Source: Alkalinema sp. FACHB-956 (lineage in GTDB: Bacteria; Cyanobacteriota; Cyanobacteriia; Leptolyngbyales; Leptolyngbyaceae). Taken from it: 64,000 nucleotides of DNA. The number at the start of each line of letters is the position of its first letter. The first letter of the stretch is position 1. The translations under genes were made by a program, and so were the position numbers. This document shows, in pieces, positions 51,826 through 53,746 of this stretch. The stretch spans positions 248,001 to 312,000 of the forward strand of contig NZ_JACJRC010000002.1 of assembly GCF_014697025.1 (NCBI RefSeq), read 5' to 3'. The notes below the pieces were generated by a model. That model was not told where the DNA came from. It worked only from the letters and a program-made list of their open reading frames with translations, and did no database searches.

Positions 51826-52458
51826 TCAGGAATTGAGCGATCGCTGATGGCAGTGGATTTCAGTTTGTAAATTGTGGCGGGCTGCTTGTTCAAGGTCGGC
51901 AAAGAGTCGATTGGTGTGGTAAATTCGATCGCGCTGGAGAAAGTTTTGTAAAACCGCAATGCGACCCTGTTGATACTCGGCCAGAGAAACCCAGTCATAT
52001 TCCCGACGGATGGCCGCAGCATAGCGATCGTAGTCCTGAGGCGCACTCCCTAAGATCGCCAAGTCAGCGTCTAGGAGTAAAGCCGCATCGGGTAAATCAT
52101 CCGGAATACGATGGTCTTGGGTGGCCAGAATTAATCGCTTAATTGTGTGGATGCGATCGCGATCGATCGACCAAGCTTCTAAATAACCTTGAGCGACGGC
52201 AGCACTTTCGGCTTCGTTTGTCCTTTGGGTGGGATCGTAGACGATATCATGAAACCACGCCGCACACTGTAACGCGAGCCAATCTTGAGCCTTGGGACGG
52301 AGGGTTTCCAAGGTGTCTAATACATGGGCAATGTGTGGGAGGGTGTGGTAGTGGCGATGGCTTTCTGAATAGGCGTTGACAATTTCTTGATAGGTTTTCG
52401 TAATTTCGCGGTCCTTGACTGCCCAGGATTTTAACAGGGTATACCATCGCATCTTCAT
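51826..52458 (-). CDS. HD-domain metal-dependent phosphohydrolase
   Basis: A 210-residue HD-superfamily protein. HRHYHTLPHIAHVLDTLETL supplies the first His ligands, AAWFHDIVYDPTQRTNEAES the HD doublet, and DADLAILGSAPQDY the distal Asp. Similar small HD proteins hydrolyse nucleotides or act on unknown phosphoesters. No partner domain is present. Cytosolic. Confidence 0.88.
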   Translation of the reverse strand: MKMRWYTLLKSWAVKDREITKTYQEIVNAYSESHRHYHTLPHIAHVLDTLETLRPKAQDWLALQCAAWFHDIVYDPTQRTNEAESAAVAQGYLEAWSIDRDRIHTIKRLILATQDHRIPDDLPDAALLLDADLAILGSAPQDYDRYAAAIRREYDWVSLAEYQQGRIAVLQNFLQRDRIYHTNRLFADLEQAARHNLQTEIHCHQRSLNS

Positions 52459-52513
52459 TGGGGTTTATCCAAGCAATACTGCAATAAATTTCTAAAATTG
52501 CTAGTCTAAAATT

Positions 52514-52700
52514 ACGTGAGTTCGATAATTCGTGGTGAGGCTCGATCGTCGGGGCTGCTCCGCAGCGAAGATCGGGGAACGTCTCCCCGCCCCCCTGCGA
52601 TGTCAGGGGACTCTACTCCCCCGACACCCCCCGAAAGTGAATTCTCCATTTTTAAGGACAGGAGATCTGTGAGGGACACTTTGGCTTGTCGAACTCACGT
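52514..52700. mobile_element. MITE-like element with terminal inverted repeats and cloverleaf-like interior
   Basis: A 187-bp element. The 12-bp perfect terminal inverted repeats are ACGTGAGTTCGA (52514-52525) and TCGAACTCACGT (52689-52700). It is flanked directly by TAAAATT on both sides (52507-52513 and 52701-52707), a probable 7-bp target duplication. It encodes no transposase. The interior 52548-52625 can form a closing stem (GTCGGGG with CCCCGAC) around three hairpins: GCTGC/GCAGC, CGGGGA/TCCCCG and CCCCTG/CAGGGG. A 76-codon frame crossing it is not a gene. Confidence 0.8.
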
Positions 52701-52789
52701 TAAAATTGCTAGAAAGATGGCTAAAAAATTTAAGGGATCTGAGTAACAGCCCAGATCCCCATACTCAAACCATTTAGTTTGCCAAGCCG

Positions 52790-53746
52790 TTAACCTCTCG
52801 TCGAAATCCGGGCCATCTTCTTGAACGGTAGACTCACTTTACCCGTCAAACTCTGAAAATAAATGCCGCCAACCGTGATCAAAAACACCCCGTAGGCGAC
52901 ACCCTGCACCATGAATAGCCGTTGCGTATACCCAAACAACGCACTCAAAATCACCCCAGGAAAGCGATCGTCCGGTAACACCTTACTGAAGTTCCAGACC
53001 ATCGGCCCCAGAATGCAAGCCCGATTTTCCGCCTTGACAAAGCGCTCTTGGAAGAAACACAAGGCCGCAGACTTGCGATCGAGACTGGCTAACGCATTCA
53101 ACGCCACATCAAAATGCCCCAGGGCTGTCACCACCAATCCCGCCACAATCAGCAGCAGCAACACCCCCATCATCATAAAAAACTTACGCAGATTCAAGCG
53201 AATGCCCAGCTTGAACAACATGACCCCGATCGCTACAGCACCCGCTAGACCAGCTAGAGCTCCCAACGCAGGTACCAACCCCTGCTGAAACTTCGCTGAA
53301 ATAAATAGTACCGTTTCAAAGCCCTCGCGAATCACCGCAAAAAAGATGAGCGCAAATACGCCCCAACCGGCCTTGGCCTGATTTAGGGCTGCATGAATCG
53401 CGCCTTCCACATCGGTCTTGAGCGTGCGGGCATTTTGCGTCATCCAAATCAACATCCAGCTCAACAGCCCGATCGCCATCAGACTGAAGACCCCTTCCAG
53501 CAATGGCTCAAACACCGGGCCATACTTCTCATTGGATTGCCCCAAATTTTGCACAAACCAACTGAGCAGCACGCCCACCAAGCCACTCGCCGCCAATCCC
53601 ACGCCTACACCGCTATAGACCCAAGGTGTTAGATGGGATTGGCGTGCTTTTTTGAGATAGGCCAAAACAATGCCAACGACCAATGCCGCTTCCACCCCTT
53701 CCCGCAGGGTAATAACAAACGTGGGTAATGCAGAACTCAAGTCCAT
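52790..53746 (-). CDS. FTR1-family high-affinity iron permease
   Basis: About 318 residues with seven transmembrane helices. The two REGxE iron-translocation motifs are present: REGVEAALVVG in the first helix and REGFETVLFISAKF mid-protein. FTR1 permeases carry iron across the plasma membrane, usually after oxidation by a partner ferroxidase. ATG 53746 gives the conserved start LSSALPTFVITLREG. It is downstream of the HhH lipoprotein (53850-54860) and the multicopper oxidase on the same strand, a Fet3/Ftr1-like set. Confidence 0.94.
   Translation of the reverse strand: MDLSSALPTFVITLREGVEAALVVGIVLAYLKKARQSHLTPWVYSGVGVGLAASGLVGVLLSWFVQNLGQSNEKYGPVFEPLLEGVFSLMAIGLLSWMLIWMTQNARTLKTDVEGAIHAALNQAKAGWGVFALIFFAVIREGFETVLFISAKFQQGLVPALGALAGLAGAVAIGVMLFKLGIRLNLRKFFMMMGVLLLLIVAGLVVTALGHFDVALNALASLDRKSAALCFFQERFVKAENRACILGPMVWNFSKVLPDDRFPGVILSALFGYTQRLFMVQGVAYGVFLITVGGIYFQSLTGKVSLPFKKMARISTRG

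Follow-up and report, generated by a model that had tools for sequence, protein, structure and literature searches.

The MITE analysed here, from the cyanobacterium Alkalinema sp. FACHB-956, is probably an element of IS982 type that is moved in trans and contains a captured cassette, kept as structured nucleic acid. It lies in a window, i.e. the whole stretch of 64,000 nucleotides that was analysed, which forms part of the 6.16-Mb genome (59 contigs; G000 in the following). In the mechanism that we propose, the transposase of an IS982-family IS would act in trans on the ends that this IS has in common with the 187-bp MITE, insertion would leave 7-bp target duplications, and the interior would be a captured copy of a cassette of 66-69 nt that is shared by the family and contains palindromic and mirror repeats. 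Related genera carry this cassette on MITEs with other ends or in frame in genes. The cassette would be kept for its structure, which consists of the two hairpins H1 and H2b and a C run after each, and each C run could lie as a third strand on the 3' arm of its hairpin. The features are listed in Table 1.

Table 1. Features of the MITE and its surroundings (positions in the window)
Feature	Position	Strand	Basis or remark
Target duplication TAAAATT, left copy	52507..52513	.	Read directly at the element edge
MITE, 187 bp	52514..52700	+	31 BLAST matches in the own genome; both ends present in 9
Left terminal inverted repeat, ACGTGAGTTCGA	52514..52525	+	The IS982-family IS (G000:C17:63941-64957) has this sequence at its two ends
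Small hairpin GCTGC-TCC-GCAGC	52554..52566	+	Left part of own-genome copies; alignment and folds; not found in the aligned rows of relatives
Conserved core cassette, 69-nt form	52570..52638	+	Model R1: 18 copies in own genome; family 24/42; class 26/291
Hairpin H1, CGGGGA-ACGTC-TCCCCG	52573..52589	+	Folds; pair counts
Turn between H1 and C run	52589..52591	+	Site of extra hairpin X in long copies; X absent here
C run CCCCT, putative third strand T1	52592..52596	+	Mirror of H1 3' arm TCCCC; columns 8/14/26 co-change between clades
Hairpin H2b, TGTCAGGGG-ACTCTACT-CCCCCGACA	52601..52626	+	Both-sided changes at 4/7 pairs in 73 cores; in best fold
C run CCCCCC, putative third strand T2	52627..52632	+	Columns 37/60/64 co-change in G017
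Right terminal inverted repeat, TCGAACTCACGT	52689..52700	-	Pairs with left repeat in inverted-repeat comparison
Target duplication TAAAATT, right copy	52701..52707	.	Read directly at the element edge
Intrinsic-terminator-like site	52733..52760	-	Directly past the FTR1-family permease gene, between this gene and the MITE

The borders of the element agree with the first-pass annotation, which had been made from the sequence alone. The terminal inverted repeats are identical over 12 bp, as annotated, and the inverted match of the ends extends over 15 nt at 93%. Likewise, the 7-bp duplication reported there directly adjoins the MITE on the left and on the right. Joining the flanks without the MITE gives two tandem 14-bp units of TCTAAAATTGCTAG, so that the target site was a short repeat before the insertion; the 7-bp duplication is nevertheless required to account for the flank sequence. 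The statement that the element contains no transposase is borne out as well, as the sole frame of at least 60 aa that starts within the MITE (76 aa) has no Pfam match. The MITE is located between two minus-strand ORFs, a gene for an FTR1-family permease (PF03239; 52790-53785) and an ORF (51826-52458) for which a Pfam search gave no match. It is 55 bases (52459-52513) away from the start of the latter ORF and could affect its promoter.

The annotation as a MITE is supported by copies, terminal inverted repeats, target duplications and a candidate parent IS, all of which were found. The proposed BLAST search for other copies revealed 31 matching places in the own genome; the element has terminal inverted repeats and is present in multiple copies without a transposase. 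Nine copies have both ends, and six of these nine are flanked by exact 7-bp repeats, i.e. by a target duplication of constant size. The number of matching places and the exact repeats exceed what a chance resemblance would give. The flanking 7-mers of the other three differ at 2, 4 and 5 of 7 positions, and these copies without an exact duplication count against the proposed mechanism. The search for a parent IS with matching ends was successful, too: With at most one mismatch allowed, the end sequence occurs at 52 sites, among them one perfect pair 1017 bp apart, and this pair delimits one intact copy of an IS that agrees with the MITE in all 12 bases of either end (G000:C17:63941-64957). The 303-aa transposase of this resident IS matches the IS982 model NF033520 (5.9e-75, passing the cut-off) and PF13612; the genome contains a single other match to this transposase, which is 51% identical and has a stop. 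Since an intact IS with the same ends is present in the genome, it is likely that its transposase moves the MITE in trans. Two observations speak against this idea: the flanking repeat of the IS is 8 bp rather than 7 bp and lies within a tandem array, and the identity between MITE and IS is limited to the ends (12-13 bp). No common sequence past the ends was found when the two were compared by eye, and the MITE is therefore not apparently a deletion derivative of the IS. According to PMC7335449, IS982 elements have AC ends and a length of about 1 kb, and their direct repeats vary in length. The parent candidate, with AC ends, 1017 bp, its 303-aa transposase and its 8-bp repeat, resembles this family, whereas the MITE shares with the IS only its ends and has a 7-bp target duplication. 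The MITE also resembles other MITEs mobilised by ISs, such as Nezha of cyanobacteria: it is short, free of transposase and multicopy, with terminal inverted repeats, a target duplication and the ends of a resident IS. It differs from them by its IS982-type ends and by an interior cassette that is also present in MITEs with other ends. Three copies of ACCTGAGTTCGA, which resemble the MITE end sequence, are present at 16-bp spacing at G000:C48:16715-16758.

The core of the MITE is far more widespread than the IS982-type MITE itself. When the MITE was compared with 39 genomes including its own, matches were found in seven, and those in the six other genomes span only positions 56-132 of the query and have flanks unlike the MITE. 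A covariance model of the core (R1) detects 18 copies of this 66-69-nt sequence in the own genome. At E 0.001, 24 of the 42 family genomes contain it; at E 1e-5, it is present in 26 of the 291 genomes from the class, of which 16 belong to the own family and 10 to four other families. All copy numbers of the core are lower bounds because a limited number of candidates was scored per genome (124 in the family search, 17 in the class search). The exact core pattern occurs in a collection of named species in 39 stretches from 10 organisms, all of them cyanobacteria, including Stenomitos, Leptolyngbya, Tildeniella and Oculatellaceae. The core is probably older than its carrier MITE and recurs across related cyanobacteria.

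The other genera have the core without the IS982 ends. In genome G014, it is combined with an inverted, diverged relative, termed B, within a MITE of 323-324 bp with the ends CTACYGTGTACACAC. This MITE has exact 11-bp direct repeats at L254, L256 and L259 (the latter a 167-bp deleted form) and 11-bp repeats with one mismatch at L253, L257 and L261; the copies L258 and L260 have no flanking direct repeats. Genome G009 contains a 360-bp relative of the G014 MITE with no clear repeat (L262), and the core copies of G017 sit within a further, different conserved sequence. The core is therefore one passenger common to carriers without visible kinship, and a single structured passenger is found on MITEs with different ends. 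Elements of 1.65-2.08 kb in G014 were considered as autonomous parents, but they were rejected and read as other ISs, of presumed families, inserted in the MITE. Such other insertion sequences are apparently present inside the 323-bp core-carrying MITE at L253, L254 and L255. Two 167-bp copies in G014 (708330-708720, L259; 2597390-2597790, L261) resemble deletions in which the G run of the core is fused to the inverted B, suggesting recombination between core and B modules. A description of the cassette was not found among the titles and abstract openings listed in the literature searches; the small mobile cyanobacterial repeats of Elhai et al. (2008) could overlap with it. According to PMC3733652, the palindrome of REPs is tagged on one side by a conserved tetranucleotide (GTAG or CGTC); the core has no such tag, as the three bases before H1, inspected by eye, differ between genera.

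In some relatives, the core has entered coding sequences. In the genus designated g4, the first linker of CobN (PF02514; TIGR02257) contains the core in frame in all seven genomes, and it is absent from 23 aligned CobN loci of other genera. The second linker contains an inverted core that is complete in five of the seven alignment rows and truncated in one; the seventh row stops at a contig edge, and a separate contig, which matches the part of CobN that follows, contains a core. Other CCCCC-rich repeats are present in frame in the second CobN linker of the own genome (G000:C2:355818-358178; L177) and in both linkers of CobN from G007 (L176). Since these repeats occur at the linkers that contain the core in g4, the CobN linkers look like recurrent landing places. 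Moreover, six of the seven g4 genomes have the core in a protein that we loosely call SoxA-like (sarcosine-oxidase-alpha-like; its TIGR01372 score is under the cut-off); the seventh yielded no more than a short, partial homolog. At the site of the core, the query has about 80 residues between the aligned blocks versus fewer than 30 in sarcosine oxidase 1vrq. The in-frame cores in CobN and the SoxA-like protein are found in both orientations and in several frames. A 2-kb transposon between inverted cores, suspected from their spacing at L122-L124, was rejected: L122 is a cobN gene with two in-frame cores, and the same gene is present at L123 and L124.

The presence in frame in unrelated genes, observed in other genera and not in the window, is reminiscent of the Rickettsia palindromic elements, which are characterized in the consulted part of PMC10969869 as palindromic repeats of about 150 bp that lie in frame in unrelated genes. 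The core would then be a selfish, protein-compatible insertion that is selected for open frames and not for a nucleic-acid fold. The CobN and SoxA-like cores as well as a 42-nt nested hairpin that preserves the frame in coding core copies are in agreement with this idea, but other results are difficult to reconcile with it. First, the mean number of open frames per core is 3.88 of 6 (88 cores) as compared to 4.12 in dinucleotide shuffles; there is no excess, and selection for open frames was rejected. Second, frames of at least 400 aa contain 19 of the 108 distinct core places, a set that is enriched by the CobN query and includes two doubtful cases (L083 and L141), and 89 of 108 places are outside such frames. 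These genic counts are biased as some loci were fetched with CobN as the query. The 533-aa frame at L141 was rejected as an in-frame insertion because it spans two genes (GT2 and TPS domains). Finally, the variation of H2b (see below) is better explained by compensatory changes in a stem. We regard selection for open frames as a rather unlikely explanation of the core. As judged by description, the core also differs from the Rickettsia elements in its length of 66 nt and its presence within MITEs. It provides a case outside Rickettsia of palindromic repeats that are tolerated within conserved proteins.

The first-pass annotation had described a 78-nt interior segment (52548-52625) as a tRNA-sized cloverleaf with a closing stem (52548-52554/52619-52625) and three hairpins, which might be a structured RNA or aid single-strand transposition. 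The excised segment indeed has this structure as its best fold (-37.3 kcal/mol; 4 of 200 shuffles are as good), but the cloverleaf is not supported as the fold of the whole element. The complete 187 nt fold better than all but one of 200 shuffles, and their best fold has none of the seven pairs of the closing stem and none of the six pairs of the third hairpin (H2a). Two hairpins of the cloverleaf, GCTGC/GCAGC and H1 (6 of 6 pairs), are retained, together with 7 of 9 pairs of an alternative stem, H2b (TGTCAGGGG/CCCCCGACA). An extension of the 78 nt by 15 bases at the 3' side is already sufficient for H2b to be formed (-40.0). The left arm of the closing stem is found upstream of the core at 19 of 19 places in the own genome versus 1 of 90 in other genomes. 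No tRNA was detected in the window, and the element has no match to tRNA-type or other Rfam families even at E 10. A role in single-strand transposition is unlikely since both the ends and the target duplications point to a DDE element of the IS982 family. The cloverleaf was rejected on these grounds and because H2a is not compensated: H2a pairs in 63.6% of the cells as compared to 92.6% if slid by one base, neither with any both-sided change, and it was also rejected as a conserved form. It is thus highly improbable that the interior is a tRNA-like structured RNA or an aid to single-strand transposition.

The annotation had suggested covariation across copies as a test. Compensatory changes are present across genera, above all in H2b, but none was detected in five stems among the 14 own-genome copies; since the stems hardly vary in these copies, they are uninformative in this respect. 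The stems were evaluated in 73 distinct 66-nt cores out of 88, after four with a 7-nt loop insert had been left out and 11 of the 69-nt form had been handled apart. For H2b, 92.4% of the cells are paired, and both-sided changes occur at four of seven pairs (24 cells). Among 500 shuffles, none reaches the percentage or the cell count, three reach the number of pairs, and 335 the extra pair types; moreover, H2b exceeds all six slid versions. H1 hardly varies and, taken by itself, has no excess of covariation, as 152 of 500 shuffles attain its percentage of paired cells; this weighs against the proposed mechanism. Taken together, the data support the idea that a structured interior, other than the one annotated first, has been maintained by compensatory change, with the signal confined to comparisons across genera. 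A long closing stem between the G run of H1 and the tail C run was rejected, as it pairs in 80.4% of the cells but in 97.9% if slid by one, neither with both-sided changes. In a long form of the core, the turn that follows H1 contains an additional hairpin, X, which adds 41 nt in the own genome and 42 nt in the g4 genes. The position of X within the core is identical in different genera (L172, L174, L241 and L015, L016, L020). Its lower stem mostly pairs although the sequences are largely different between genera; of seven distinct X sequences, six are alike in the apex GGCA..GCGTC, and the apex of the remaining one is close to it.

The strong GC hairpins of the core and the mutually exclusive H2a and H2b pairings are also what one may expect if the MITE carries a terminator or attenuator of transcription. 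However, a terminator scan of positions 52300-52900 found two terminator-like sites, both outside the MITE, and a terminator within the element was therefore rejected. Moreover, the portion of PMC4666352 that we used refers to an earlier study in which E. coli motifs had no promoter or terminator activity. Such a regulatory function seems quite improbable to us.

The core is less divergent than its surroundings. In eight full-length copies, 13 of 552 core sites (2.4%) differ from the consensus as compared to 45 of 368 sites (12.2%) in the adjacent spacer (Fisher p 2.5e-9); in six copies with decayed ends, it is 8 of 414 (1.9%) versus 58 of 276 (21.0%; p 3e-17), with sites taken as independent in both tests. 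This low divergence reflects either constraint after insertion or homogenisation. The core copies are numerous and dispersed within one genome, which makes gene conversion possible; recent bursts or conversion among GC-rich copies, rather than selection, could thus have homogenised a core without function, and this possibility counts against our preferred reading. But within these copies, the divergence of the neighbouring spacer exceeds that of the core by a factor of 5-11, and H2b and hairpin X still pair across genera that have different sequences. An origin of the conservation without function is, in our judgment, unlikely. Selection on the fold of the captured cassette would account for these observations.

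It is tempting to speculate that the C runs contribute to this fold as third strands. The runs after the two hairpins have mean column identities of 98.4% and 94.5%, and the turns that precede them of 60.7% and 83.1%. The hairpin loops, which would be outside a triplex, are conserved too (mean column identity 97.0% for loop 1 and 88.5% for loop 2), so that conservation alone cannot single out the C runs. Each C run is, however, the mirror of the 3' arm of its hairpin. In a comparison between clades, based on columns with a consensus that is at least 97% identical in the remaining cores, the 69-nt form (own genome and G007) differs from the rest by fixed changes in three of 20 columns: columns 8, 14 and 26 change from G-C,C to A-T,T in all 11 rows. 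This comparison was limited to columns 0-33 since the second half is shifted by a 3-nt insert. Similarly, G017 differs from the other 66-nt cores in three of 32 columns, 37, 60 and 64, which change from G-C,C to A-T,A in all 14 G017 rows; the next strongest change, at column 2, is present in 13 of 14 G017 rows, and this column is 93% identical in the other cores. We take both A-T,T and A-T,A to be canonical triads of the purine motif. Given a change of the pair, the odds to hit the mirror base by chance are about 1 in 18 and 1 in 30, calculated post hoc. The joint change of one stem pair and the mirror base of the next C run, as predicted for three-strand pairing, is suggestive. In the purine reading, a mirror run after a short turn fits in 357 of 364 cells for T1 and 278 of 292 cells for T2 in the 73 66-nt cores, and in 55 of 55 and 42 of 54 cells, respectively, in the 11 cores of the 69-nt form.

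Several points weaken this interpretation. The co-changes are two clade-level events that were sought after the alignment had been seen, and the T at 52596 (column 26) could instead reflect pairing with the A at 52605 in H2a. Moreover, one T2 triplet (ACC) does not fit in the own-genome form (11 of 11). Finally, the search rule for triplexes given in the part of Holder et al. (2015; PMC4666352) available to us demands a stem of at least six triplets and loops of 1-6 nt, whereas T1 has five triplets and T2 has four with a loop of about 8 nt. Alternatively, the C and G runs might be kept for a putative minus-strand G-quadruplex or another G-run element, as the minus strand of the core contains four G runs of at least four. 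This idea predicts neither the compensatory changes of H2b outside the G/C run nor that the A/T substitutions lie at mirror positions, and we consider it very unlikely. It is possible, though less likely than not, that the core is a mobile cassette with selected three-strand pairing that would have left co-changes of stem and third strand and would move into different MITE families and protein linkers.

According to the same part of PMC4666352, G/C-rich intrastrand triplex motifs are frequent in cyanobacteria, and in vivo data did not support a stable triplex. The core resembles these motifs in the order of GC-rich hairpin, short turn and mirror run; it differs from them by the presence of two such units in tandem, by the R-Y-Y order on the C-rich strand and by shorter stems. 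The motif TMECO is stated there to be always intergenic and not on mobile elements, whereas the core is found inside MITEs and genes. Whether GC-rich intrastrand triplexes form in bacterial cells is also left open there; the core family provides matched natural variants for this question, since its diverged copies are numerous, some of them have natural three-way substitutions and some lie within conserved enzymes. If the three-strand reading is correct, bacterial intrastrand triplexes would have a comparative (genetic) signature in these co-changes.

Mirror runs with a T within the run were also seen in B modules: of 59 stretches, 8 have TCCCCC/CCCCCT and 5 have TCCCCTC/CTCCCCT. These stretches are a mix of second halves of cores, B modules and a few unrelated sequences, counted without a shuffle control. 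The pattern G5-N-C5-N-C5 has zero matches in either order in the own genome. In other genomes of the family, it outnumbers its reversed control in G017 (68 versus 0), G009 (99 versus 11) and G016 (179 versus 9), and the reverse order prevails in G040 (3 versus 386), G047 (0 versus 289) and G020 (14 versus 115).
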